Shown here: positions 9,414 through 26,756 of the stretch, piece after piece
Layout of the letters: each line of letters begins with the position of its first letter
Numbering within the stretch: position 1 is the stretch's first letter
Source: Cytophagales bacterium
GTDB taxonomy: Bacteria; Bacteroidota; Bacteroidia; Cytophagales; Thermoflexibacteraceae
DNA length: 64,000 nucleotides
Assembly: GCA_004294445.1 (NCBI GenBank)
Contig: REAZ01000020.1
Span: 1 to 64,000 of the forward strand
Direction: 5' to 3'
Program-made: the position numbers and the translations under genes
The notes under the pieces: generated by a model
Databases searched by the model: none
What the model was told of the DNA's origin: nothing
Seen by the model: only the letters and a program-made list of their open reading frames with translations

Positions 9414-10772
9414 TTATTTTGGCACACTGTAGTTTTTGCTGGCATCGTCCAACATAAGTACCCAGTCATGCCCATAGCCCGAACTTGGCGGAGAGAATCT
9501 CTTCTTGCCTTTGTTATCCAATTTTTCCAAAAATTTGACCTCTCCATTGCGTGGGTTAAACCAATATGCATTAAGGTGATTTCCAGTTATTTTGCCCAGA
9601 TTTACCATAAATGGTTTGCCCGTACTGGCATAGACAAAGGCATAGTCATTGCCTCTGGTGGCTTGGATTCGCTCCCCTACGTATAAGTTGTTTTCCTCCA
9701 CCAAAGATTGGTCAGGGATGCGGTCAAGCAGGGGGCGTGCCTCCAAAAGTTGGCGTACAAACTTCATTTGGTTAGCGGCGGGCAGCTCCATCGCTTCCTG
9801 CCAATAAATGTGTGGGTTATTCACAGCCTCGTGATAAGGAGAGTAGAACTGCCAAATATCATGGCAGCCGTAAGTATGCCCGAAAGCACCTGCAAAAAGG
9901 TCTAAATAGGCATATCGTCTTACATCATACGAGTTAGAAGTTCCAAATTCTTTCGCATTAAAACAAACAGGGTGGTCTTCATAAATAGGCTCTGAGTCCA
10001 TCACAGGCTTTGTTGGCATTTTTTGATAGCCCCTTGAAATATAGTCATATACTGGCTTATCTCTGCAATGCCCAGTTTGGAACATATTAAAATCTAACCA
10101 CTCGTCTGTGTGGAACCATTCTGCGGAACTTTCCTCGTTGGGCTGTGGGTGAAAGCTAATCATTGCGTTTTCAGAACCTCCAATAGCTTCCTCAATGCCT
10201 GCCGCCATTGCCCGCCAAACTTCTATATCGGTTTGATTGCGTGGGTTGCGGTCGCCACCTAAAATCCAAACTATATTTTTTCGGTCTTTGTAGCGGTTGC
10301 CTATCCACTTCCCATAGATTTTGGCATTGTCTTTTGTAAATATTTCAGGTCCCTTTCCCCATCCTGCTTTGAATAGTTTATCGCCCCAAGTAGGCAAAAG
10401 CCCTATCACCAGCCCATACTGATTCGCTTTATCTATAATGTAATCAACGTGTTGGAAATATTTTTCTATAGGTTTGGTGGGGTCATCAAATGCCAAAGGT
10501 ACATCGCCGTAGGGGTTGGGTGCGTGCAAGCCATCAAACTCTGCCAAAACTACCGACTGAATGACAGTATAGCCTTGCTCTGCGCGTCTTTTCAGATAGT
10601 ATTCTGCTTGCTCGCGGTTCAGACGATGAAATAACTCCCAAGCGGTGTCGCCCAACCAGAAAAACGGCTTGCCATCTCTTAGGATAAAACGCTTGTTTTC
10701 ACTCACTCTGAATTGGGCAAGGGAGGCAAAATAGAGGCTCAAAAAACAAATTGATAAAAGTATTTTTTTCAT
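9414..10772 (-). CDS. DUF4038 / GH140-like glycoside hydrolase
   Basis: Secreted protein of 452 residues with signal peptide (MKKILLSICFLSLYFASLAQ). The N-terminal segment RFILRDGKPFFWLGDTAWEL and the following RAEQGYTVIQSVVLAEFDG are typical of the DUF4038 apiosidase-like TIM barrel (GH140). The last 90 residues, with a DYAFVYASTGKPF segment and WFNPRNGE, match the collagen-binding-like C-terminal domain commonly attached to it. It probably removes a terminal sugar such as apiose from plant or algal polysaccharide; the substrate is inferred from the family only. Confidence 0.85.
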   Translation of the reverse strand: MKKILLSICFLSLYFASLAQFRVSENKRFILRDGKPFFWLGDTAWELFHRLNREQAEYYLKRRAEQGYTVIQSVVLAEFDGLHAPNPYGDVPLAFDDPTKPIEKYFQHVDYIIDKANQYGLVIGLLPTWGDKLFKAGWGKGPEIFTKDNAKIYGKWIGNRYKDRKNIVWILGGDRNPRNQTDIEVWRAMAAGIEEAIGGSENAMISFHPQPNEESSAEWFHTDEWLDFNMFQTGHCRDKPVYDYISRGYQKMPTKPVMDSEPIYEDHPVCFNAKEFGTSNSYDVRRYAYLDLFAGAFGHTYGCHDIWQFYSPYHEAVNNPHIYWQEAMELPAANQMKFVRQLLEARPLLDRIPDQSLVEENNLYVGERIQATRGNDYAFVYASTGKPFMVNLGKITGNHLNAYWFNPRNGEVKFLEKLDNKGKKRFSPPSSGYGHDWVLMLDDASKNYSVPK

Positions 10773-10903
10773 ATTTTTTAATCATTTTTATCGTGTAAAA
10801 TATTGTCTTGAATAGATGTATTTACAAAAAAGTCTTTACTAGAAATCATTACATCTTGCTTAGATAATTGATATTCAAGAATAAACCGTTCTTTGAAAAA
10901 CAT

Positions 10904-10985
10904 ACGGTCTGACCGAAGGTCTGCACCGTACAGACCTTCGGTCAGACGGTACAGGAACGAATATTACGGTACAGGAACGAATATT
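10904..10985. repeat. Palindrome plus tandem 20-bp repeat
   Basis: Inverted repeat with perfect 17-base arms at 10907-10923 (GTCTGACCGAAGGTCTG) and 10931-10947, separated by 7 bases. It runs into two perfect tandem copies of ACGGTACAGGAACGAATATT at 10946-10965 and 10966-10985. The sequence GGTCTGCACCGTA at 10918-10930 is also found in the palindromic repeat at 52469-52481. The rest of the 10773-11022 gap shows nothing else recognisable. Confidence 0.85.
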
Positions 10986-11022
10986 TATTGAAACCCAATT
11001 ATCTAAGAGCATAAAATACCAT

Positions 11023-12012
11023 CTAATCGAACTGGAGGACAAGCGTACCTAAACTCAGTCCTGCTCCCGAACCTATGAGTAGGATGTTTTTATTTTCAAT
11101 GTGCTGATGGCTGTTATAAAAATGCTCCAACCCTAATGGAATGGAGGCAGAAATACAATTTCCGTACATAGCTAAAGTTTCAATGACTTTTTCAGGATTT
11201 AAGGAAAAGTGGTTTATAAAATACTCACTCCCAAATTTACTTGTCTGATGAGGTATAATCTTATCAAACTCATCGATTTTGTGCCGAACATTCTCCTCTA
11301 TATTTTTAACAAAGCTGTCTAAATGCTTTATAGTCAGCCGAATGAGGCTTTTGCCGTCCATCTTAAAATAATAGCCTGTATCTGTTGGGTCGCTTGTGAT
11401 GCCTCTGTTCATCACCCCGCCTATGGGCAGATTTGCCAACATTGCACCCGAAGGATAATTCACAAAATTTGCATACTGCGGTGTATATCCCCCTTTTTCA
11501 GTCGATTCTAAAATGATTGCTACGGCAGCATCTCCAAATAAGCCAAAAACTTTTTCGTCATCAGGAGTCAGTAATTTAGAGGATACCTCTGAGCATACAA
11601 TCGCTATCCGCTTGTAACGCCTTGCCGCCAAATAGACATGGGCAATATCTAAGGCATTTAAGAAACTCAAACAAGTAGAATCTACATCAAGGCAGGGAAA
11701 ATTAATTTTATCGTCAGCTATTTTTGATTTGATAATGACGGAATTGTGCGGCGTAGGGTAATCAAAAGAAGCCCCAGAAAATATAAGCAAGTCAATTTCT
11801 GAAACACTCATTTTTGCCTTGCTCAAGGCACTTTGCAAGACTGCTGCTCCCATCGAGCATACTGATTCTTGCCCCGAAATATGGTGGCGAAATTGCACGC
11901 CCGTATTTTTTTCAATCCTTCCTATCCTTCCCTTTGCAATTTGGTCTAAGGTTTCTGACTTGATTTGTTGCTTTGGAAGATATTTTTCAATCGCTCTGAT
12001 GCTAATTTTCAT
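11023..12012 (-). CDS. 3-oxoacyl-ACP synthase III-like enzyme (KAS III fold)
   Basis: Condensing enzyme of 329 residues, normal length for FabH-like proteins. The catalytic triad is visible: Cys114 in DVDSTCLSFLNAL, His in IIPHQTSKFG near residue 253, and Asn in MYGNCISASIPLG near 285; a GSGAGLSLG glycine loop is near the C terminus. It is the last gene of an operon whose upstream neighbour overlaps it by 4 bases (ATGA). It is probably a pathway-specific rather than the housekeeping FabH, because of the adenylating enzyme and SDR next to it; this is inference from context. Confidence 0.88.
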   Translation of the reverse strand: MKISIRAIEKYLPKQQIKSETLDQIAKGRIGRIEKNTGVQFRHHISGQESVCSMGAAVLQSALSKAKMSVSEIDLLIFSGASFDYPTPHNSVIIKSKIADDKINFPCLDVDSTCLSFLNALDIAHVYLAARRYKRIAIVCSEVSSKLLTPDDEKVFGLFGDAAVAIILESTEKGGYTPQYANFVNYPSGAMLANLPIGGVMNRGITSDPTDTGYYFKMDGKSLIRLTIKHLDSFVKNIEENVRHKIDEFDKIIPHQTSKFGSEYFINHFSLNPEKVIETLAMYGNCISASIPLGLEHFYNSHQHIENKNILLIGSGAGLSLGTLVLQFD

Positions 12013-13292
12013 ATATCCCGTTTAATTTTTCTTAATTTATTTCCTTGAATGGTGTTTAGCTTGCTTTTAAACTCAAGCGTTGTGCCTAAAATTCCTTGCT
12101 CCCTAAGCAGGTTATTTAGTGCATATTCAAACGCCTGCCTTGCTTGTTCCCATTCAGTTTCTTCGGTTTCAAGGCAAACTTCCAACTTGTTTTTGCCTAC
12201 CTGAGCAATCGTATATTTTTGAAAAGCGTTGGTTGCTATGGCAATCCTTCGAGCAATTAAATCGGGAAAAACTTTTTTATTGTCCAACAGAAGTACATCA
12301 TCATCTCGCCCAATAATTTTTTCTATGGCTAATAATTTTGACCCGCAAGCACACTCCGTTTTTCGTAGTTGCAAAATATCATTCAACTTATAATTGACCA
12401 TTGGCTGGCTCTGCCTTGAAAAATCCGTAATAATAGGATAAAACTTATCTTCATCAATCCATTCTTTGTCGAAGCGTATAAAATCTTCGTTTAGGTGCAT
12501 AGTTCCATATTCGCAACTTACCCCTAAAAACCCTTCCGTACATTGGTAAACCTCTGTTATTGGCACTCCAAAAACACTTTCTATACATTCTTTATCCTGC
12601 TGGTGCAAAACCTCTGCAAAAGAAATAAGTTGAATAGGGCAAATTGAAACAAATTTTTTACGTTTTGCATCTGCTATGTCCATAAGAATAGACGGTTGGG
12701 CAGCTAATATGTCAGGTGAATAATCGCTGAGTTCTTCGAGAAGCCCCGAAATAGGTTTGAAAATATCAAAATACCTAAATTCGAATAGGTTAGACGCTAC
12801 AGATGCGTACAAATTACTATTTGCCCGAAGAAAAAAAGCAACTTTCTGCTTTTTGAAAAACTTGGGCTTCATCACCCTCGCCATCACCAAAGCCACCCAC
12901 CATGCTCTTTCATTTTCCGAAACCAAAAACAAAGCTCGTTTTCCGCTTGTCCCAGTTGATAAGCCAACTGTTATTCCATTTATTTTATTTTTAAAATCTC
13001 TTGAAACTTCGGCTTCCAAAGCCAGTTTCATAGCCACATCTATTGAAATCTGACAAGTATTTATGGAATCAAATGCCTCCATAAATTCCGTTTTGGTGAT
13101 TTGAGGAACTGCCTGCCAATCAAATTGACCGTTTAGCATGAATGCCCGATAAAACTTAGATTTAGTGAGTATTTTTTTTGCAAAAACATTCATTCGCTTT
13201 TTCTGAAAATCATCAATCGCTTTCCTTGAGCGAAATTTTGGCAAAAGCAATATTTGAAGCCAATATATCAATATTTTTAATTTAAATCTCAT
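12009..13292 (-). CDS. Adenylate-forming enzyme, PaaK / F390-synthetase-related
   Basis: Protein of 427 residues of the CoA ligase/F390 synthetase superfamily. The P-loop-like A3 motif is GLSTGTSGKRALFLVS around residues 107-122, and later segments EVYQCTEGFLG and KIIGRDDDVLLLDNKKVFP resemble the A5 to A8 motifs of PaaK-like enzymes. It would activate a carboxylic acid as acyl-adenylate. An in-frame TTG lies at 13298; I chose the ATG at 13292. It overlaps the upstream hydrolase by 11 bases and the downstream KAS III by 4, so these proteins are translationally coupled. The substrate is unknown. Confidence 0.85.
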   Translation of the reverse strand: MRFKLKILIYWLQILLLPKFRSRKAIDDFQKKRMNVFAKKILTKSKFYRAFMLNGQFDWQAVPQITKTEFMEAFDSINTCQISIDVAMKLALEAEVSRDFKNKINGITVGLSTGTSGKRALFLVSENERAWWVALVMARVMKPKFFKKQKVAFFLRANSNLYASVASNLFEFRYFDIFKPISGLLEELSDYSPDILAAQPSILMDIADAKRKKFVSICPIQLISFAEVLHQQDKECIESVFGVPITEVYQCTEGFLGVSCEYGTMHLNEDFIRFDKEWIDEDKFYPIITDFSRQSQPMVNYKLNDILQLRKTECACGSKLLAIEKIIGRDDDVLLLDNKKVFPDLIARRIAIATNAFQKYTIAQVGKNKLEVCLETEETEWEQARQAFEYALNNLLREQGILGTTLEFKSKLNTIQGNKLRKIKRDI

Positions 13293-14106
13293 TGGCAATG
13301 TAATTTAGCGTTTTGGCACAATGCGTAAATAAGATAGAAAACTCTGCATGAGCCGTTTCAAATGCCCTAATTTTATTTTGAGTTTCGATAAAATCACCCC
13401 ACGAATCAAAAAATAATTTTACGATTTTACTTGGCAAAATACCTTGCTGATAGGTTTCGTAACTCCAAGAAGCGTCAGTAGCGTATAAAATGGCTTGTTT
13501 TTCATCTTTGTACAAAAAACCTAACATTCCTTTGGCGTGTCCGTCCAGTGAAATCAATTTGAAAGAGGAATGATTGAATACATCAAATTCGGTGATGCCT
13601 GCATCATTGACAAAAATATTTTTTGCAAAATCTTCCAGCAACACTACTCTATTTTCAAAATCATCGGGGAGTAATTTATGCAAAATTCCTTTGCTCACAG
13701 CCCTCACGCCTTTCGATGTCATTACTTCATGGTAGGCAAGTTTGCTGCAAATAATTTTAGCATTAGGAAAATCTTTTAAGCCCGCAATATGGTCGGCGTG
13801 AAAGTGTGAAATAATGACATACTGAATTTCATCAGCGTTGATGCCCTCATTGCCTAATAAGGCTTTAGCAGTTTGATGCGGCTTCAAATGCAAAGGGGTA
13901 GCCCACCTGTAGAATCTTTCTGGAAAACTGCTTGTTGCTTTATCAAATTCCTTGGTATAACCCGTATCAAAAAGTATATTGCCGAACTCAGGTAGGTAAA
14001 TTAAAGCCCAAACTGCATAGAATTTGGATACTCCTTTTCCGTTCAAAGGATTGACAATCTTTTCGTGTGCTTCACAATAGCCAGAGGCAAAAAAGCGTAT
14101 ATTCAT
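13282..14106 (-). CDS. Metallo-beta-lactamase-fold hydrolase
   Basis: Protein of 274 residues. The metal-binding HxHxDH motif is present as ISHFHADHIAG near residue 108, with further ligands in FKLISLDGHAKGMLG and LYATDASWSYE. There is no signal peptide, so it acts in the cytoplasm. I chose the ATG at 14106 because it makes a 4-base ATGA overlap with the upstream SDR gene; an earlier start at 14124 is possible. Lactonase or thioesterase activity is common in this fold, and either would fit an acyl pathway, but the substrate cannot be told. Confidence 0.85.
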   Translation of the reverse strand: MNIRFFASGYCEAHEKIVNPLNGKGVSKFYAVWALIYLPEFGNILFDTGYTKEFDKATSSFPERFYRWATPLHLKPHQTAKALLGNEGINADEIQYVIISHFHADHIAGLKDFPNAKIICSKLAYHEVMTSKGVRAVSKGILHKLLPDDFENRVVLLEDFAKNIFVNDAGITEFDVFNHSSFKLISLDGHAKGMLGFLYKDEKQAILYATDASWSYETYQQGILPSKIVKLFFDSWGDFIETQNKIRAFETAHAEFSILFTHCAKTLNYIANEI

Positions 14107-15107
14107 TGTTGAGTTTTGTACCATTTTATGTATTCATTGATGCCTTCATACGTTTTCATTACGGGGCGGTAGCTAAGTTTGGAAGTGGCTTTTGCAATAG
14201 CTAAAGTAAAATGATTCGCAAGCACGCCAACGCCGTAGCGGGTGAGTGGAGGCTCTTTTTTTTCTTGGAATAAATAGGCTTTCAACTCCAAAATAGTAGC
14301 GGCAAACATGGCAATTTGTTTTGGCACTCGCTCAGAAGGGGGCGTTAAACCCAATTCGGTCAGGGTATAATTTAATACTTCCCAAAAATTTACCTCGTCA
14401 TCATCTGTGATGTTATAAGCCTCGCCGTAAGCATCTGCGGGGGCATTGATACTGCAAATTATTGCCTCAATCACGTTGCGGACGCAAGTCATGTCGCACC
14501 TATTTTTGCCATCTCCAACAATTTTTAACTTCCCTTTATGATATGCCTCTAACACTCTGGGAACAATAACGGTATCTTCAGCACCAATGATGGCACGCGG
14601 TCTTAAAGCAATGGTTTGAATACCTTTGTTATTTGCCCTCAATACTAAATTCTCTGCCAACAATTTCGTTTTTGCATAATTATTCACCATTTTTTTTGGC
14701 AATTCCTCATTTTCGCTTACCTTAAATCTGTCGGCGTAATTGAAATAAATGCTTGGCGTTGAGATGAAAATGAATTTGCTCACCCTATTTTTGATACTTG
14801 CGTTTAGCAAAGTTTCTGTCGCTACGTAGTTTGATTGGTAAAATAATTTGTACGCACCAAAAGGTGCTGACAAAGCCGCACAATGAATGACTATATCGAT
14901 ATTTTGCGTGAGAGATTGGCAAAAAGAATCATGGCACAAGTCGCCCGCCACAAACTCCACCTGATGGGCTGCAAACTCTTCTGCTCTATTGGCTCGCCGC
15001 GATGTACCGATGACTTGGTAATCATCAAAATTTTGTGCTAAGAATTTAGCGGTACGCCCGCCCAAAAAACCCGCCGCTCCAGTTACCAAAATTCGTTTTT
15101 TCATCAT
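14103..15107 (-). CDS. Extended short-chain dehydrogenase (3-beta-HSD/OleD-like)
   Basis: NAD(P)-dependent enzyme of 334 residues. The Rossmann motif GAAGFLGG is at the N terminus (residues about 10-17), the active-site Tyr and Lys are in NNYAKTKLL near residue 148, and the RPRAIIGAEDTVIVPRVLEA segment is typical of the 3-beta-hydroxysteroid dehydrogenase and OleD branch. It starts 3 bases after the stop of the GNAT-like gene and overlaps the hydrolase gene by 4 bases. Together with KAS III and an adenylating enzyme it recalls, but does not equal, the OleA/OleC/OleD head-to-head condensation pathway. Confidence 0.88.
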   Translation of the reverse strand: MMKKRILVTGAAGFLGGRTAKFLAQNFDDYQVIGTSRRANRAEEFAAHQVEFVAGDLCHDSFCQSLTQNIDIVIHCAALSAPFGAYKLFYQSNYVATETLLNASIKNRVSKFIFISTPSIYFNYADRFKVSENEELPKKMVNNYAKTKLLAENLVLRANNKGIQTIALRPRAIIGAEDTVIVPRVLEAYHKGKLKIVGDGKNRCDMTCVRNVIEAIICSINAPADAYGEAYNITDDDEVNFWEVLNYTLTELGLTPPSERVPKQIAMFAATILELKAYLFQEKKEPPLTRYGVGVLANHFTLAIAKATSKLSYRPVMKTYEGINEYIKWYKTQQ

Positions 15108-15110
15108 TGT

Positions 15111-16229
15111 CTAAAGTTCATATTTATCGAGCAGTGGGACACCTATTTTATTGGAAATAAATTGGAGGACAGACCATGTAAACCTTCGTTTGAACGACAA
15201 ATGTTTTGCATACACTACAGAATACTCGATTGCGGGAATGCCCCCTCTGAACCTTTTAAATTTGGAAGCCCCCGAACTCAGGTTCAATAGCTTTTTGGTA
15301 TTAAACTTATGAATGACGGCTAATCTTGCTGCATGAATATACAAACCATCTTCTTGCGGTGCGGCGGTGTCGTAGCCGAGCAATGGCGAAGTGATGGTGT
15401 CCTCAATGATAAATAAGCCAGAAAAGGCTTTTAAAACGCCCGAATTGTCTTTAAACCCTTGAAAATGTATGATATTTTCATCATAGCAAGTATGAAAATA
15501 TTGATTGGTAAATTGTGGATTATGCTTGGAATATTTTTCCAAATACAATTTGTTGTAGAGCAAAAGTGCTTGGTCGAGGTAGTCTTTCATTTCTTCGTGT
15601 TTCAAATAAATAAGTTGCTGGGCTTTTATCATTTTATTGTCCAGTTTATTGTTCCTCCTTTTTAGCCACTCCTCTTCCGTACTATCAAAAATATACACTT
15701 GCCTACTTCCAATTTTCTGATACCCTAATGTTTCAAAATTTTCCAATAAATGTTGGTGCTGATATACATTTAAAGACCTAAAAATGATGGTATGCTCAGG
15801 ATATTCCGATTTAATAAATTCGGTAATTGCTTTTATTTGCGAACCGTCCCATTCGGGATAGGGGTTGGTAGAAAGCAAAAAATTATTTACGTGAATGTTC
15901 TTATCTATCTGTCCGTACTTAAGCCATTTATCAATGAGCCTAATAAGGAGCAAGAGCGGTAACTGAATCCATCTTTTGTCTATTTTCCGTAATAACTCCT
16001 CTTTGGAATAGCGCACGTAAGCCGTATGAGGGGAGCAAACAAATGAGTTTTCCATTTCAAAATCATTGATAGTTACAGGAAAAAACAAATCATCGGCAAC
16101 TTTTAATAGTTTAAATTTTGTAAAAACATTGGCGATAGCTTTTTTCGAACTATTTAGCGAAAATAATTTAGCAAAAGATTTTAACTGACCGTCTGCCAAC
16201 TCTTCCCAATTTATCCATCTAATTTTCAT
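15111..16229 (-). CDS. GNAT/FemAB-like protein of unknown substrate
   Basis: Protein of 372 residues without signal peptide or membrane helix. The central part contains EHTIIFRSLNVYQHQHLLEN followed by FETLGYQKIGSRQVYIFD, which reads like the first half of a GNAT-type fold. The C-terminal half (FSGLFIIEDTITSPLLGYD, then HAARLAVIHKFNTKKLLNLS) reads like the second acyl-transfer half seen in FemAB/BioF2-like double-GNAT proteins. No exact family is recognised. It overlaps the upstream ATP-grasp gene by 11 bases. Amide or ester bond formation in the same pathway is inference. Confidence 0.6.
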   Translation of the reverse strand: MKIRWINWEELADGQLKSFAKLFSLNSSKKAIANVFTKFKLLKVADDLFFPVTINDFEMENSFVCSPHTAYVRYSKEELLRKIDKRWIQLPLLLLIRLIDKWLKYGQIDKNIHVNNFLLSTNPYPEWDGSQIKAITEFIKSEYPEHTIIFRSLNVYQHQHLLENFETLGYQKIGSRQVYIFDSTEEEWLKRRNNKLDNKMIKAQQLIYLKHEEMKDYLDQALLLYNKLYLEKYSKHNPQFTNQYFHTCYDENIIHFQGFKDNSGVLKAFSGLFIIEDTITSPLLGYDTAAPQEDGLYIHAARLAVIHKFNTKKLLNLSSGASKFKRFRGGIPAIEYSVVYAKHLSFKRRFTWSVLQFISNKIGVPLLDKYEL

Positions 16230-17328
16230 ATCCGTTCCATTCTATATTGCGTGTTGTTGCCCCTAACCAGCTTGTTTTTTGAGTAAATTTGAGATAGGCA
16301 ACCTCAATTAAACTTATGAGTTGAAGGAAAAATGGAGCTAAATCGTTCCATTTGAAAATGATGTCTTTGGACTGCCATACTCGCTTTTTAGCAAAAGAAT
16401 GCAGGTGCAGAATTGCCATTGCATACTTAATAGAAAATTCCTGCTTGTCTGTATGTATGTATGTGTTGCTGCCCAAAAAAGCATCTGCCAAATCTTTGTT
16501 TATCAAATGCCCACCGCTCGTGCCTCTTGGGTTACATTCTATAAAGTAGGGCGTTCCGTCCTTGCTCAAAATGACATCAAAAGATAATTGACCTGTATAG
16601 TTAAGTTTACTACCTGCTGTTTTTACGTACTCAAAAATAACATCATTTGCCACAGGCTCAAAAAAAACGCCCGCACCTTTTCCTGCCCTATAAAGAGGTT
16701 GATAGGCGGCATAAGCCTTTAGCTTTCCGTTGTCCCAAATAGAATAAACACAGATTTCCTTGCCCGCAATAAATTCTTGGGCAACCCAACGGTGCTTGTC
16801 TGTTTCTTTAAAATATTGGCGGTTTATCTTTTTCCTGATGATGACCGAAGAGGCAAACCTCGAATAAATTGGCTTAAATACATAGCTTTCGCTACGCCCC
16901 CAATCATCAAAGTCAGTGAGAAGAATAGTTTTAGGAACAGGAAACCCGCATCTATTCGCACTTGCAAATGTATATTTATTGTGGAGATGAAGCATTAATC
17001 CTAAATCAGTAGTCCACACTTTGCAGGCAAAACGGTCTTTGTTTTGGGATACAAAAATAGCCTCCTCGCAGGTAGGGATAAAATGAGTTACATTTTCCAA
17101 GCGGATAATCTCCTGAATTTTTAAAACAAATAGTTCGTTTTGAAATCTTGGCGAAGGAACAAAATAATATTTGCACACACTATTAGACCATCTTGCTATG
17201 GTGAGGTGCAAACAATCAATCATAATGACTCGATGCCCCATAGCTTTAAAACTTCTGGCAAGTTCTAAGGCTATGGGCGCTCTTGCCCCGCTTATCATAA
17301 TCGTTTGCTGTTTATTGTTTATTTGCAT
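16219..17328 (-). CDS. ATP-grasp domain ligase
   Basis: Protein of 369 residues. It opens with a Rossmann-like pre-ATP-grasp segment (TIMISGARAPIALELARSF), has an ATP-binding YVFKPIYSRFASSV segment near residue 150, EFIAGKEICVYSIWDNGKL near 200, and the metal-binding core with DVILSKDGTPYFIECNPR (Glu-Cys-Asn-Pro-Arg) near 262-279. It would join a carboxylate to an amine or thiol with ATP. The start at 17328 (ATG) is preferred to an in-frame TTG at 17340. It overlaps the upstream 150-residue gene by 17 bases, showing coupling inside the operon. Confidence 0.85.
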   Translation of the reverse strand: MQINNKQQTIMISGARAPIALELARSFKAMGHRVIMIDCLHLTIARWSNSVCKYYFVPSPRFQNELFVLKIQEIIRLENVTHFIPTCEEAIFVSQNKDRFACKVWTTDLGLMLHLHNKYTFASANRCGFPVPKTILLTDFDDWGRSESYVFKPIYSRFASSVIIRKKINRQYFKETDKHRWVAQEFIAGKEICVYSIWDNGKLKAYAAYQPLYRAGKGAGVFFEPVANDVIFEYVKTAGSKLNYTGQLSFDVILSKDGTPYFIECNPRGTSGGHLINKDLADAFLGSNTYIHTDKQEFSIKYAMAILHLHSFAKKRVWQSKDIIFKWNDLAPFFLQLISLIEVAYLKFTQKTSWLGATTRNIEWNGYEN

Positions 17329-17764
17329 ACTCAAATACAAGTCTTATATTCTTGTTCTGCTTTGGGCGTTGGGGTAGCCGCCAAGCGAAAGTGTGATACG
17401 CCTTTTTTTCAACAAAACCCGAAGGAATACAAAAAATACGAATTGTATCTACTTTTGCATCTTCCAAAAATCCTAATAGCCTATAAATAATTTCTGCAAG
17501 TTCTAATTCTTTACTTTTGAATAAGTAAGCCTCGATAATTTGTCCAAAAGTTACCTTATTTTTGCTTTGGACTTGGCTCAAAATAGGCGAAAAAGAAAGC
17601 CCTATTTCGTTTTTTTCTTCATCGTAGCCCGCCCCTATTTTCCACTCGATTTCTGTCGCCTCCACAGGCAAGACACAAGAAAGTTGTGTGAGAATTTTAC
17701 TCTGTTTTTCGAGAGTTTGCCTCTCAAAAATAGCTTCTAAAAGTTCTATAATTCGTTTTTCCAT
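17312..17764 (-). CDS. Unknown 150-residue protein, first gene of the operon
   Basis: Soluble, slightly acidic protein of 150 residues (MEKRIIELLEAIFERQTLEK at the start). It has no Cys cluster, no signal peptide and no motif I know. It is the first gene after a promoter-like palindrome and overlaps the ATP-grasp gene, so it is probably coregulated with the pathway. It might be a small accessory or carrier-like protein, but there is no DSL phosphopantetheine site to support a carrier role. Confidence 0.6.
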   Translation of the reverse strand: MEKRIIELLEAIFERQTLEKQSKILTQLSCVLPVEATEIEWKIGAGYDEEKNEIGLSFSPILSQVQSKNKVTFGQIIEAYLFKSKELELAEIIYRLLGFLEDAKVDTIRIFCIPSGFVEKKAYHTFAWRLPQRPKQNKNIRLVFEYANKQ

Positions 17765-17771
17765 CTTCTAA

Positions 17772-17789
17772 TAACTTTGTGCAAAGTTA
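17772..17789 (-). promoter_or_regulatory. Palindromic -7 box before the seven-gene operon
   Basis: The sequence TAACTTTGTGCAAAGTTA is an inverted repeat with 8-base arms and a 2-base centre, and each arm equals a TAnnTTTG -7 box on one strand. The minus-strand copy (17789 to 17782) is 17 bases upstream of the ATG at 17764. The symmetry suggests either back-to-back promoters or an operator covering the promoter. Confidence 0.5.
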
Positions 17790-17948
17790 GCAAAAATGTT
17801 TGCTTTAGCCTTTTAAAATAGTTTTTGGGGTTTTATCAATATCCTTTATCTTGCTGTTGGAAGGAGTATTGCATTTCACACCGCTTGAATGGCTCAACTA
17901 TAAATGTCGGGTTGCTGTGGTCAATTCATTATTCGACTCAAATGTAAT

Positions 17949-17987
17949 AAAAAAATGAGCCGAGTAACTATTTTATTCGGCTCATTT
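17949..17987 (-). terminator. Terminator of the gapN-like gene
   Basis: Stem arms 17953-17963 (AAATGAGCCGA) and 17977-17987, followed on the minus strand by a run of T opposite 17949-17955. It lies about 50 bases after the gene's stop at 18040. Confidence 0.8.
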
Positions 17988-18039
17988 AGAAATTTTGTAG
18001 GGAAAAACTAAGAAAATATAGCCTAAGTTAATGACTACT

Positions 18040-19659
18040 TTAAAATATAAATCTGGTAGAGAGGAACTTAGATTCGTTATGCTCTACGATATGGTTCAAA
18101 ATCTCCTTATTTTCGGGGGTTAGCTTTGTGGCTACCATTGTTCTGATAGAAAAAGCCCTCAAAGCGTCAGTTACCGAAAGCGTAGTTTCTCCCGAATCTT
18201 TGCGACCTGCAAACGGAAAAGTATCAGGACCTCTTTGGCATTGGGCATTGATGTTTACCCTACATACTTGGTTTACAAGCGGGTCTATCAGGCTTGCTAT
18301 TTGTGCCGAGTCTGTGCCAAAAATACTTAGCTGCTGCCCATGCTCCGATTCTATCATGTATTGGATAGGCTCCTCTATGTCTTCGAAAGCCACAATCGGC
18401 ACGACGGGACCGAACTGCTCCTCTACATACAGTTTCATGCCTTTTTTGACGGGATAGACGACCGCAGGGAATACGAAAGAGTTAAAAGTATCGCCGCCGC
18501 CTTCGTTCATTACCTTCGCCCCTTGTGCTACGGCATCATCAATACATTCTTTGATATAAGCTGGTTTTTGAGGCTCTGGGAGTGGAGTAATCTGTACGCC
18601 TTTTTCCCACGGCATTCCTATTTTTAGCTTGCCAACTTCCTCACAGAAGCGTTTGATAAAGATGTCTTTGACCTTATGGTGAACAAAAATGATTTTCAGA
18701 GCCGTACAACGCTGACCGTTGAAGGAGAGCGAACCCAAAATGCACTCTTTTACGGTCATTTCTATATCGGCATTGTCCAAAATAATAGCTGCATTTTTGG
18801 CATCTAAGCCCAAAACAGCTTTCAATCTGTTGGATTTTGGGTGAGATTTTTTCAACTTATCAGCTACCTTGCTTGAGCCTATGAGCGTGAGTACATTTAT
18901 TTTGCCCGTAGCTATCATAGGGCCTACTATAGTATTTCCTCTGCCATATACGGTATTTACCACGCCTTTTGGGAAGCACTGTTTGAACGCCTCCAAGAGG
19001 GGATAATGTAATAAAGTTCCATGTTTTGGCGGTTTGAAAAGCACCGTATTCCCCATAATAAGGGCGGGAATGAGGGTGGCAAAAGTTTCATTTAGCGGAT
19101 AGTTAAAAGGACCCATGCACAGCACAACGCCCAAGGGTGCGCGCCTGATTTGCCCAATGATTCCCTGCTCGATGACGAAGCGGGAGTGAGTGCGGTCTAA
19201 ATCTTTGAGGGCATCGATGGTATCGTAGTTGTACTGCACAGTACGGTCAAATTCTTTCTCGGAATCAGCGTAAGACTTGCCAATTTCCCACATGAGTAGT
19301 TTTACTATTTCTTTCTTTTTTTCTACCATCATGTTGGTAAACTTTTCCAAGCAGGCTATTCTTTCTGGCACCGTCATCATACTCCATTCCCCTCTGCCGT
19401 TGTTATATGCCTTCACTGCAGCATCGAGAGCTTCCAACGCCTCTACTTCGGTAGCTATGGGGTAGCTGCCTACTACTTTTGGTTCTAAAACGCCGTCAGT
19501 ACGTACATATACGGGGGAAAGTACGGTGTGTGCATCACCATTCCAAGCACGCATTTCGCCATTCACCAAATATTCTTTTTGGTGCAGTGGGGCATCAAGC
19601 CTGAACTCCTCTGGAATTTGGGCTTCTGTAGGGAAAATTTGCTGTAGTTTCTCTTGCAT
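18040..19659 (-). CDS. GapN-like aldehyde dehydrogenase (non-phosphorylating glyceraldehyde-3-phosphate type)
   Basis: ALDH superfamily protein of 539 residues, closest in feel to NADP-dependent non-phosphorylating glyceraldehyde-3-phosphate dehydrogenases. The coenzyme-binding segment MGPFNYPLNETFATLIPAL is near residue 180 and the catalytic Cys is residue 318 in FNGQRCTA. In ALDHs the general-base Glu lies 34 residues before this Cys in a LELGGK motif. Here that position is Gly284 in LGLDAKN, so the usual base is missing, with Asp286 nearby. The enzyme would oxidise an aldehyde in central carbon metabolism; the exact substrate is uncertain. The gene is monocistronic with its own terminator. 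Confidence 0.82.
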   Translation of the reverse strand: MQEKLQQIFPTEAQIPEEFRLDAPLHQKEYLVNGEMRAWNGDAHTVLSPVYVRTDGVLEPKVVGSYPIATEVEALEALDAAVKAYNNGRGEWSMMTVPERIACLEKFTNMMVEKKKEIVKLLMWEIGKSYADSEKEFDRTVQYNYDTIDALKDLDRTHSRFVIEQGIIGQIRRAPLGVVLCMGPFNYPLNETFATLIPALIMGNTVLFKPPKHGTLLHYPLLEAFKQCFPKGVVNTVYGRGNTIVGPMIATGKINVLTLIGSSKVADKLKKSHPKSNRLKAVLGLDAKNAAIILDNADIEMTVKECILGSLSFNGQRCTALKIIFVHHKVKDIFIKRFCEEVGKLKIGMPWEKGVQITPLPEPQKPAYIKECIDDAVAQGAKVMNEGGGDTFNSFVFPAVVYPVKKGMKLYVEEQFGPVVPIVAFEDIEEPIQYMIESEHGQQLSIFGTDSAQIASLIDPLVNQVCRVNINAQCQRGPDTFPFAGRKDSGETTLSVTDALRAFSIRTMVATKLTPENKEILNHIVEHNESKFLSTRFIF

Positions 19660-23581: not shown

Positions 23582-24766
23582 TTAGCCTCCTGCTATTCTT
23601 TCTACTATCCAAAAAAGGGCAGCAAAGGCAGCAAGGCAAGACATAAGTATTCGGAAATTTGCGTAAATCGGGCGTTTACTTAGCAGCATCAAAGGCGGAA
23701 GCACCAATAGCATGATACAAATTTGCATCAGTTCTATCCCCACATTAAAGCCAAAAATACTTAGCCCCATTTGCAAGGCATCGAGGTGCAGTTTGGAAAG
23801 CGTATCGGAAAATGCCAAGCCGTGAATAAGCCCAAAACCTGCCGCAATATAAATTTCCTTGCCAAAAAACAAAGGTCTGTAGGCGTGAAAAGCCGAAATG
23901 AGGATAGAAAAACCAATCATTACTTCTATGAGTTGGCTTGAAAAGGGTATCCAAGCAAGCGTGCCGAGCAGTAGCGTAACGGAATGACCCGCCGTAAATG
24001 CGGTAATGATACTAACAAGTTTACGAACCGTATATCGCAAACCGCCAAAGGAACTCCATTTTTTATTTTTTACCAACAAAGGAGCAGGCACAAGCAAGAT
24101 AAGCAAAAACAATAAATGGTCTGTTCCCTCCGCAATATGATTTGCCCCTAATACAAGCATTGTTTTAAAGCCTTTCCACAAGCTGCCCTCCCCCAAATTA
24201 ATTTCAAGTGGAAAAATCTTGCCCGTAGGAATATCCAATTTCACTACGCCAATAGGTAGCAGATTTTCATGCTGCCCACTTTCCCAATCCTGCACCACAT
24301 TGAGCAATGCCTCATGCGTAATTACCTGATGAATAATGACATCATAAAAAAGTAGGAAGTAACGAATATCACTATCAGTTTTCGGAAAAATTTGTATTCT
24401 TACCGCCAGTTCGCTATACTTCCCTACTATTTCGCTGTTTGTTTCTTGGATAGTAGCAGAGATAAATTTCACTTCCCACGTTTGTTTGTCTTTGCCTTGT
24501 AACCTGATGTGTTCCTGAAAATATCGCCTAAATTGCTCATTTTCATTGATATTACTACCTATTTTTTGCCCAAAAGCCAGTTCAAATTCACTCAAAGGCA
24601 TGAGTATATCCATCTGAATACTTTTGTGCTGTATGGTCAGTTCTATCACCGTATTGGGCATGGGGTGGGCGTAGGCAATCTCTCCGAAAAATAAGGTAAA
24701 AAATAGCAAGTAGCAAACCTGATGAAGGTTTGCTACTTTGGGAAAAGACTTAGAAACTGCCGCCAT
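23582..24766 (-). CDS. HupE/UreJ-family membrane protein
   Basis: Protein of 394 residues with a signal peptide ending AYAHPMP, an extracytoplasmic N-terminal domain of about 170 residues, and then six or seven membrane helices. The segment LGANHIAEGTDHLLFLLILL, with FTAGHSVTLLLG and AGFGLIHGLAFS following, is the hallmark of the HupE/UreJ_2 family and carries His and Asp residues that could bind metal. I chose the ATG at 24766 because it places the signal peptide at the start; a non-optimal start at 24811 is in frame. The start overlaps the DUF3500 gene by 17 bases, so the two are translationally coupled. A role in metal transport (Ni/Co for HupE) is a family-level guess. Confidence 0.82.
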   Translation of the reverse strand: MAAVSKSFPKVANLHQVCYLLFFTLFFGEIAYAHPMPNTVIELTIQHKSIQMDILMPLSEFELAFGQKIGSNINENEQFRRYFQEHIRLQGKDKQTWEVKFISATIQETNSEIVGKYSELAVRIQIFPKTDSDIRYFLLFYDVIIHQVITHEALLNVVQDWESGQHENLLPIGVVKLDIPTGKIFPLEINLGEGSLWKGFKTMLVLGANHIAEGTDHLLFLLILLVPAPLLVKNKKWSSFGGLRYTVRKLVSIITAFTAGHSVTLLLGTLAWIPFSSQLIEVMIGFSILISAFHAYRPLFFGKEIYIAAGFGLIHGLAFSDTLSKLHLDALQMGLSIFGFNVGIELMQICIMLLVLPPLMLLSKRPIYANFRILMSCLAAFAALFWIVERIAGG

Positions 24767-25811
24767 AATCGCCTGTTCTATCTCTCCAAACTGAGTGGGG
24801 GTGAGGTACATTTCTGATGACGATACCGCCTTGTACCGAATATTCTATCCAAACACTTGTGCCGTCTATCCTCACATAATCGTTTTGGACTGTCAGGTTG
24901 GCATTTCCCGAATAGGCAATGTAGGTATCGTCTATTTCTGCGGTATATTTCGCCATGATGATGGCTGCATTGGCATCGTCTATGTCGTTTACGTACGTTT
25001 TTATAGCATTCAATACGGCTGTTTTTTGTGCAGCATTAAGGTTGCCTACCTTCAATCCCGATTTTGCATTGGGGAACTGCCCGTCTTTGCCTGGTCCCAG
25101 CAAAATATCACTGAAAGTAGAGGAAAGTTTGGCTGTAGCAAGTTCGCTTGCGCTTAGGCTACCAAACATTGCCGCTAAAGCATCTCTGTCTTGCACTAAG
25201 GGCTGGTAGTTGCTACCGAAGGCAGCAAAAGGCTCAACAGCTCTGAATGAAGGAGTTGCCCCCTTCAAAACTCCATTGACGTAGGTATTGGAAACTGCCA
25301 AATGGTGTCCGCCTGCTTGCAACTGCCAAGTAGCAGTAGCGGAGGGCGTACCCAAAAAAGCCATATAATACTGTCCTGCTCCGTAGGTAGTTCCGCCGCC
25401 GTTGTTGCTTAGGTAGTCATCTGCCAACCAAAGTTGGGTAATTTCCTCATAACCTTCGTTAGCAGTGCTACCCGTAACTTCTTTGAGCAGAGCTTTGGCG
25501 GCGGTGAGTTGGGTTGCGTTCAAATCGCCAAACCGAATACCTATGCGTGGCACCATAGTAACGGGCAAATTCGACCATTTTTTTGCATTGGTGGCATTGT
25601 ACTCCAGCTGCAAAGTAGTAAGTTGCGATGCAGAAAGTGTGGCTTTCAGATTTTCTGCCAAGCAAACAATTTTGGCAATGCCTGTTTTTGAGCTGCAATC
25701 CGTTACCGTTCCCGAAGGCGTAACTGCCGCAGACGCATCATCACTGCTTTTGCTACAAGAAACAAAAGACACGCAAGCAACAAGAAATAAATTTAAAACT
25801 AATTTTCTCAT
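24750..25811 (-). CDS. DUF3500 lipoprotein
   Basis: Predicted lipoprotein of 353 residues with lipobox SFVSC (Cys20). The mature part has the DUF3500 pattern: a region with RIGIRFGDLNATQLTAAKAL, the YYMAFLGTPSATATWQLQAG segment, GGHHLAVSNTYV, and the C-terminal NDYVRIDGTSVWIEYSVQGG and HPHSVWRDRTGDYGGS. The conserved HH and the C-terminal HPHxxWRD could bind metal or be catalytic; the family has no established function. It overlaps the HupE-like gene by 17 bases and follows the esterase gene by 6 bases, so the three form an operon. Confidence 0.88.
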   Translation of the reverse strand: MRKLVLNLFLVACVSFVSCSKSSDDASAAVTPSGTVTDCSSKTGIAKIVCLAENLKATLSASQLTTLQLEYNATNAKKWSNLPVTMVPRIGIRFGDLNATQLTAAKALLKEVTGSTANEGYEEITQLWLADDYLSNNGGGTTYGAGQYYMAFLGTPSATATWQLQAGGHHLAVSNTYVNGVLKGATPSFRAVEPFAAFGSNYQPLVQDRDALAAMFGSLSASELATAKLSSTFSDILLGPGKDGQFPNAKSGLKVGNLNAAQKTAVLNAIKTYVNDIDDANAAIIMAKYTAEIDDTYIAYSGNANLTVQNDYVRIDGTSVWIEYSVQGGIVIRNVPHPHSVWRDRTGDYGGSF

Positions 25812-25817
25812 ACTGTT

Positions 25818-26756
25818 CTATTTCAAATATTTGTCTAAAAATGTAAATACTAAATTCAAGTTTTCTGTGGTTTCAAATTCACTGCCGCCATGGTTTGCTC
25901 CTTTTAATAGTTTGAGGGTTACTTTTTCACTTCCCAATGTTTTTTCTAATTCTTTGGCAAAATCAATAGACTGTTCTGTAGGCACAAGGCGGTCTTCTGT
26001 ACCATGTTGGATAAAAAAAGCTGGCTCATCTTTACTGATATAAGTGGTAGGATTAGCCACTTTTACCAAGTCTTTTGCCTCTGTAATTTTCTTACCTATC
26101 AAAAGAGATTCAGGCGAATCTGCTGCATCGTGGTCGGCTTTGCCTTTCCCTGAAGCCTTAAACTGTAAGTCCATGGTATTAAAATCAATAGGAGGAAACC
26201 AAGCTACTACTGCTTGTACCCGACTTGATACTTTTTCATTCCCTAAGCTAAGGTCTTCTAATGCCGCTACATCTGCGGAAGTGCCAGCCATGGCAGATAA
26301 GTTTCCACCTGCGGAGCCTCCCCAAGTCGCTATTTTGTCAGGATTGAGTTTGTAAGTTTTAGCATTTGCCCTAATGAAACGAATTGCCGCTTTTACGTCT
26401 TGAATTTGAGCGGGATAAATTGCTTCGCCACTCAAACGGTAATTTATGCTCACTACTGCGTATCCTCTTTTTAACCCTTCGAGCATAGGATTAAGTTGCC
26501 CGTCGGCTTTGTCTCCAAACTTAAATGCACCACCATGGATAGAGATAATGACAGGAAAATTGCCTTCCCCTTCATTGGGCAGGTAAATATCTAATTTTTG
26601 CGATACTGATAACTTGGCATAAGGCACATCAAGCCATTTGCGGCTGATATTTTCTGTATTTGCTTTTTTCATGCCGCCCCCTCTTGGTTGGCAAAAGGCA
26701 AAATGGCTTGAAAATAGCCACAGGAGCAAGTATAACAATATGGTTGATTTTTTCAT
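25818..26756 (-). CDS. Secreted alpha/beta hydrolase (BD-FAE-like esterase)
   Basis: Protein of 312 residues with signal peptide (to about residue 23, FAFCQ). The oxyanion segment ISIHGGAFKFGD, the nucleophile elbow WGGSAGGNLSAM, the acid in HGTEDRLVP and the His in GANHGGSEFE are all present, so it should be active. The closest known type is the BD-FAE/carboxylesterase group acting on acylated polysaccharides or small esters. It is first in an operon with the DUF3500 and HupE-like genes and is divergent from an AraC regulator, which may control it. Confidence 0.88.
   Translation of the reverse strand: MKKSTILLYLLLWLFSSHFAFCQPRGGGMKKANTENISRKWLDVPYAKLSVSQKLDIYLPNEGEGNFPVIISIHGGAFKFGDKADGQLNPMLEGLKRGYAVVSINYRLSGEAIYPAQIQDVKAAIRFIRANAKTYKLNPDKIATWGGSAGGNLSAMAGTSADVAALEDLSLGNEKVSSRVQAVVAWFPPIDFNTMDLQFKASGKGKADHDAADSPESLLIGKKITEAKDLVKVANPTTYISKDEPAFFIQHGTEDRLVPTEQSIDFAKELEKTLGSEKVTLKLLKGANHGGSEFETTENLNLVFTFLDKYLK

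Follow-up and report, generated by a model that had tools for sequence, protein, structure and literature searches.

A conserved KAS III-containing biosynthetic operon with intact active sites in a Cytophagales bacterium

What is made by an operon which unites a beta-ketoacyl synthase III (KAS III), an adenylate-forming enzyme, a metallo-beta-lactamase-fold (MBL) hydrolase, a short-chain dehydrogenase/reductase (SDR), a GNAT-like transferase and an ATP-grasp ligase? This question is raised by positions 11023-17764 of a 64,000-nucleotide stretch of DNA from a Cytophagales bacterium (contig REAZ01000020.1 of assembly GCA_004294445.1, positions 1 to 64,000; termed the window here). An initial annotation, made from the sequence of the window, described these genes as a pathway for a small molecule that recalls the Ole beta-lactone/olefin route. 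The analysis presented below shows that the operon forms a coherent unit for biosynthesis, conserved among relatives and with its active sites intact. Its product is proposed, at a little short of even odds, to be a small amphiphilic metabolite derived from a fatty acyl chain and bearing an amino-acid-type head.

A conserved four-gene core with intact catalytic residues

A scan of GTDB genomes returned at least 552 relatives, from which the 80 best-scoring loci were kept, so that the proportions given here describe close members of the family; gene content was counted across 60 loci with full flanks. The KAS III, SDR, MBL hydrolase and adenylate-forming enzyme (a member of TIGR02304) form a core which is complete in 55 of the 60, and the co-occurrence search proposed with the initial annotation thus found the genes of relatives kept together rather than scattered. 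An ATP-grasp gene is present in 35 loci and a GNAT-like gene in 22, of which 20 also harbor the ATP-grasp gene; the two constitute a recurring add-on to the core, and four-, five- and six-gene versions all occur. The core was detected in Bacteroidota, Bacillota, Pseudomonadota, Bdellovibrionota and Melainabacteria, and the recurrence of the same six genes in distant phyla argues that the gene set is not a product of chance. The gene order of the window (ATP-grasp, GNAT-like, in some cases a Rieske oxygenase, SDR, MBL, adenylating enzyme and KAS III) reappears in loci L044, L045, L102, L122, L135 and L142, while the order in Bacillota is KAS III, ATP-grasp, SDR, MBL, adenylating enzyme and GNAT-like.

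A tblastn search of plasmid records with the adenylating enzyme returned 64 records from many genera. Their neighborhoods include the core in Ketogulonicigenium, Paracoccus, Pseudomonas, Rhizobium and Escherichia coli, and the core together with ATP-grasp and GNAT-like genes in Paenibacillus and Paraburkholderia, the cluster proteins being homologous to those of the window by BLASTP at about 26-39% identity. The E. coli "plasmid" record is probably a piece of chromosome, because narGHJI, rssAB and galU adjoin the cluster. In this species, 671 of 5,426 complete genomes (12%) carry the core, as part of a seven-gene island located between narI and tyrT/purU and further composed of a PAP2 phosphatase, a sterol desaturase-family protein and an acyl-CoA desaturase; this island (L037:5152-12033 and L148) is apparently uncharacterized. 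Closer to the window, TIGR02304 proteins exceed the model cut-off in 6 of 395 sampled Bacteroidota genomes and 10 of 148 genomes of the window's order, and none was found in two genomes of the same genus or in eight more of the same family; as these close relatives lack the enzyme, the distribution is patchy.

Relatives of the TIGR02304 enzyme, most of them strong, are also present without core partners nearby in the Bacteroidota loci L139, L140, L141, L146, L147 and L062, which possibly hint at a second role of the family. The Pseudomonas amygdali megaplasmid pMPPla107 (L042:7872-11490) encodes TIGR02304 and ATP-grasp relatives together, without KAS III, SDR or MBL, amid unknown genes. In Paenibacillus sp. 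OVF10 (L112:5829-9001), the ATP-grasp and MBL genes are each split into two frames, through either decay or sequencing error.

The operon of the window is not decaying, as its conserved columns and catalytic residues are kept. In the SDR, MBL, adenylating and GNAT-like proteins, all columns with a conservation of 95% or more within the respective family are retained, and the KAS III and ATP-grasp proteins depart from such columns at only one or two unremarkable positions. The Cys114-His255-Asn285 triad of the KAS III is intact, as are Y144 and K148 of the SDR, and the MBL hydrolase possesses the HxHxDH motif with further zinc ligands (H107, H109, D111, H112, H196, D217 and H268). The STGTSG loop and the C-terminal Lys419 of the adenylating enzyme are likewise intact and conserved.

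Family assignment of the core enzymes and phylogenetic placement of the KAS III

Membership of TIGR02304 (F390 synthetase-related) is clear for the adenylating enzyme, which matches this model at 403.3 bits against a cut-off of 251.9; weaker model matches include BagE/FevW and FlxY. The SDR is best matched, over its full length, by OleD models, at 186 bits (OleD cut-off, 580), and the MBL hydrolase (PF00753) matches acyl-homoserine lactone (AHL)-lactonase models of the AttM-like type, its relatives including 4-pyridoxolactonase and AiiA. For the KAS III (PF08541/PF08545), the best NCBIfam model is PRK07204, with a score below the cut-off, which is, however, exceeded by the KAS III of a Paenibacillus relative; the fabH model is matched at 165 bits (cut-off, 292), and the nearest solved relatives are FabH (4ryb), MxnB (4v2p) and CorB (4yuc). 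TIGR02304, PRK07204 and PRK06849 (the best model of the ATP-grasp protein) are thus the closest models for proteins of the window, but they carry names without function.

A tree of the KAS III against FabH and OleA, also suggested with the initial annotation, was constructed with IQ-TREE from the 80 cluster KAS IIIs, OleA (PDB 3row), four FabH sequences (including the own-genome paralogue L001), MxnB, CorB and a further KAS III paralogue from the genome of the window. In this tree, the cluster enzymes fall outside both FabH and OleA and adjoin MxnB/CorB, which represent the nearest characterized group, at a support of 88/96, under the 95/80 mark, with OleA and one own-genome paralogue on very long branches. 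The catalytic triad is present in all 80 cluster members, and the CLSF and GNCI.AS motifs are common to the cluster KAS III and MxnB/CorB. At the position of OleA Glu117, equivalent to position 87 of FabH, 79 of the 80 have Ile, Leu or Val, the window enzyme has Thr and none has Glu. This Glu is used by OleA and by PpyS (E105), while MxnB/CorB have Val (V94) in its place (Kresovic et al., PMC4578411); a hydrophobic side chain at this position is thus common to MxnB/CorB and to all cluster enzymes but that of the window. Because the defining Glu117 is absent, OleA-type membership of the cluster KAS IIIs is excluded. In E. coli FabH, the bulky Phe87 fixes the preference for acetyl-CoA, and a small residue at position 87 accompanies long-chain substrates, as does Thr87 in FabH of Mycobacterium tuberculosis (PMC3734052). 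The position-87 residues of the cluster enzymes, judged by sequence, favor a longer acyl substrate without proving it.

Putative head-group modules

The GNAT-like protein of the window has no Pfam or NCBIfam match of its own, and a search of PDB sequences with the profile of its family returned nothing meaningful; among 23 family members, Acetyltransf_6 was matched in 6 and FemAB_like in 2. Its AlphaFold2 model (mean predicted local distance difference test score [pLDDT], 94.8) is matched by Foldseek to MprF, to the aminoacyl-tRNA-dependent peptide synthases Sbb17/Sba18 and to FemX, with E values of about 1e-7 to 1e-6 and a template modeling (TM) score, by target length, of up to 0.69 (Sbb17/Sba18). 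The double-GNAT fold is thus held in common with these enzymes at approximately 10-14% identity, a likeness which makes aminoacyl-tRNA a possible donor, and the earlier description of the protein as FemAB-like holds by fold and weakly by sequence. The ATP-grasp protein (PF02655) matches PRK06849 best, at 325 bits and below its cut-off, and has no PDB relative by sequence. For its AlphaFold2 model (mean pLDDT, 91.8), the top Foldseek match is PylC, and L-amino-acid ligases are among the best; these belong to the carboxylate-amine ligase group and share about 16-20% identity with the window protein. Together, the two predicted folds point to the formation of amide bonds with amino-acid-like groups.

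In other loci, recurrent neighbors of the core comprise a sulfotransferase, a fatty acid hydroxylase, a fatty acid desaturase, a Rieske oxygenase, a DUF3419 (BtaA-like) protein and a cupin, and a second SDR recurs in Paenibacillus. A PAP2 protein is also encoded beside the core in relatives, where genes for the modification of lipids are frequent. The sulfotransferase is encoded in none of 44 loci with ATP-grasp/GNAT genes versus 12 of 42 without them (Fisher P of 7e-5, uncorrected for kinship), and in Bacteroidota alone in none of 8 versus 11 of 20 (P of 0.0097, likewise uncorrected); it accompanies the hydroxylase or the desaturase. All 11 core loci with a Rieske oxygenase also have either ATP-grasp/GNAT genes or DUF3419. 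This pattern suggests a fixed core combined with exchangeable head-group chemistry.

Proposed biosynthetic route

From the families to which the enzymes belong, we infer substrates, an order of steps and a product. The KAS III would condense an activated acyl group, probably of medium or long chain, with malonyl-acyl carrier protein or a beta-ketoacyl thioester, following which the MBL enzyme would release a free beta-keto acid from the thioester by hydrolysis. This acid is the presumed substrate of the SDR, which would reduce it in the manner of OleD, an enzyme that acts on free beta-keto acids. The resulting hydroxy acid would be adenylated by the TIGR02304 enzyme, and the ATP-grasp and FemX-like enzymes are predicted to add amino-acid-type groups via amide bonds, thus forming a polar head. 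A different head would be supplied in related clusters, either by a sulfotransferase or by a transferase of the DUF3419/BtaA-like type. This reading is supported by the conservation of the core and its catalytic residues, the pairing of the GNAT-like and ATP-grasp genes, the fold matches of their products, the lipid-related neighbors in other loci, the mutual exclusion of sulfotransferase and ATP-grasp/GNAT genes and the residues at position 87 of the KAS III.

Several considerations weigh against such a fatty-acyl amphiphile. Each chemical step is drawn from family membership, and, since PaaK-type ligases often take aromatic acids, the acyl group may be something other than a fatty chain. The GNAT-like protein matches PDB folds at moderate scores (TM about 0.4-0.7), and because acyl-CoA transferases such as glycine N-acyltransferase are among these matches, the donor could be an acyl-CoA. 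The lipid-gene neighbors are located mostly in other subtypes and not in loci with the module of the window, the Fisher tests on the modules ignore the relatedness of the loci, and the modules are not wholly exclusive, because locus L041 contains both DUF3419 and a GNAT-like gene.

The individual components belong to known families with placeholder names, and their combination resembles the logic of the Ole and Pseudomonas quinolone signal (PQS) pathways while belonging to neither. PQS synthesis likewise unites adenylation, a KAS III and an MBL thioesterase (PqsA, PqsD and PqsE), and in a route of this kind a PaaK-type enzyme would activate an aromatic starter, the KAS III would add one malonyl unit, the MBL enzyme would serve as a PqsE-like thioesterase, the SDR would carry out a reduction and amino groups would be added. 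The PaaK/F390 relationship of the TIGR02304 enzyme, the BagE/FevW and FlxY models among its weaker matches and the presence of PqsD among the solved relatives of the KAS III (3h76, E value of 2e-15) are in keeping with such a route, which we nevertheless regard as unlikely: PqsD comes far behind FabH, MxnB and CorB among these relatives, a sequence search with the MBL protein gave no PqsE structure, the subfamilies differ throughout, the window operon adds an SDR, an ATP-grasp ligase and a transferase, and the desaturase, hydroxylase and PAP2 neighbors in relatives indicate lipids. Somewhat more doubtful is a fusion of chains as in myxopyronin and corallopyronin synthesis, whereby the KAS III would fuse two activated chains head to head without loss of CO2 and the remaining enzymes would trim and decorate the product. 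The grouping of the KAS III with MxnB/CorB instead of OleA/FabH, the hydrophobic residue in place of the Glu of OleA and the common motifs would fit this scheme, but the grouping has the sub-threshold support and long branches described above, and MxnB/CorB act on polyketide synthase (PKS)-bound chains, while the operon encodes no PKS or carrier protein to supply them.

A true Ole-type route, with the TIGR02304 enzyme in place of OleC and the MBL enzyme in place of OleB, is considered improbable. The operon shares with OleABCD a KAS III-fold condensing enzyme, a full-length OleD-like SDR, ATP-dependent acid adenylation and a similar four-step logic, and to this extent the analogy drawn in the initial annotation stands. 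Membership of the Ole system does not, given that the KAS III lies outside OleA and lacks its Glu in every cluster member, the SDR falls far below the OleD cut-off and the operon has no homologue of OleB or OleC: OleC is a long ANL ligase where the window has a PaaK-type enzyme, OleB is an alpha/beta hydrolase where the window has an MBL protein, and the ATP-grasp ligase and FemX-fold transferase are additional. Least probable, to our judgment, is that the operon decorates a surface polysaccharide or an existing membrane lipid instead of producing a free small molecule. Such a role would fit the modification of cell-wall or membrane lipids by enzymes with the FemX/MprF fold, the occurrence of PaaK-like CapK proteins in loci for capsules and the BtaA-like nature of the DUF3419 protein; however, no glycosyltransferase, flippase or polymerase was found in the operon, among the tested neighbors in the window or among the identified recurrent neighbor families.

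The family as a whole might, as a more speculative extension to which we assign roughly one chance in three, represent an undescribed class of bacterial amphiphiles, built by a four-enzyme core in several phyla and many E. coli strains, with interchangeable heads (amino acid, sulfate or 3-amino-3-carboxypropyl) and no carrier-protein, nonribosomal peptide synthetase (NRPS) or PKS signature. Cluster finders keyed to NRPS/PKS are expected to miss such an operon. No description of the cluster was found in the open-access full text searched (MIBiG and subscription journals lay outside the search), where papers naming "F390 synthetase" concern other contexts or list the gene without study; within this literature, no match of the operon to a characterized cluster was found. 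With the core carried by 12% of complete E. coli genomes, and also by Paenibacillus, Brevibacillus and Runella, which can be cultured, its product should be accessible by ordinary genetics. A modular swapping of head-group genes around a constant core would provide a natural experiment in lipid-like diversity.

Operon architecture and flanking regions

Seven open reading frames were recovered in the window as previously described (Table 1) and are transcribed in the order 150-residue protein, ATP-grasp, GNAT-like, SDR, MBL hydrolase, adenylating enzyme and KAS III. Counted from ATG starts, the junctions reported in the initial annotation (overlaps of 4, 11, 4, 11 and 17 bases and one 3-base gap) are exact: the KAS III and adenylating genes overlap by 4 bases (12009-12012), the adenylating and MBL genes by 11 (13282-13292), the GNAT-like and ATP-grasp genes by 11 (16219-16229) and the ATP-grasp and 150-residue genes by 17 (17312-17328), with the 3-base gap between the SDR and GNAT-like genes. 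The MBL/SDR overlap is 4 bases from ATG 14106 and 22 from the upstream ATG 14124.

Table 1. Coordinates of the operon genes and of the downstream hairpin in the window
Feature	Position	Strand	Basis
KAS III (beta-ketoacyl synthase III), last gene	11023..12012	-	PF08541/PF08545, PRK07204-like, tree, triad
TIGR02304 adenylate-forming enzyme (PaaK/F390 synthetase-like)	12009..13292	-	403 bits, alignment, conserved residues
MBL-fold metallohydrolase, AHL-lactonase-like	13282..14124 (start may be ATG 14106)	-	PF00753, AttM-like, zinc ligands
Extended SDR, OleD/3-beta-hydroxysteroid dehydrogenase-like	14103..15107	-	Family models, Y144/K148
Double-GNAT (FemX/MprF-fold) transferase, no Pfam model of its own	15111..16229	-	Alignment, AlphaFold2, Foldseek
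ATP-grasp ligase, PRK06849-like	16219..17328	-	PF02655, AlphaFold2, Foldseek
150-residue protein of unknown function, first gene	17312..17764	-	DUF4240 sub-threshold only
Terminator-like hairpin: 19 pairs, loop of 3, T-rich tail CGTATGTTTT	10907..10947	-	About 75 bases beyond last stop

The seven genes are thus arranged head to tail as proposed, while the conserved set comprises six, as the 150-residue gene falls outside it. The product of this gene matches only DUF4240 (E value of 0.011, below the cut-off); PHROGs and NCBIfam gave nothing, nor did Pfam above its cut-off, and no match was found in 90 cluster loci. Among the 148 genomes of the order it is matched in 3, namely, the window's own and, weakly, two of the same genus. 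It is probably cotranscribed with the conserved system without being part of it.

The sequence TAACTTTG (17783..17790, minus strand), which precedes the first ATG by approximately 19 bases, is taken by us to be a candidate Bacteroidota-type -7 element, although the match is weak and the consensus short. An Rfam scan of positions 10000-19000 returned no RNA family. Recent acquisition was considered on the basis of base composition and set aside, the guanine-plus-cytosine content of the operon (38.2%) not being distinctive against that of the window (39.2%). Beyond the end of the operon, positions 10859-11007 contain a 24-nucleotide inverted repeat that is almost perfect, the 20-mer ACGGTACAGGAACGAATATT twice in exact tandem and outer 33-nucleotide arms which are 76% complementary; together, these features have the appearance of a small element, mobile or repeated.

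The operon is flanked by genes for an apiosidase-like glycosidase (9414-10772) and an aldehyde dehydrogenase (18040-19659), neither of which has an obvious connection with the pathway. Further along, at positions 23582-26756, closely spaced genes on one strand encode HupE/UreJ-like, DUF3500 and BD-FAE hydrolase proteins, which probably constitute a separate operon.

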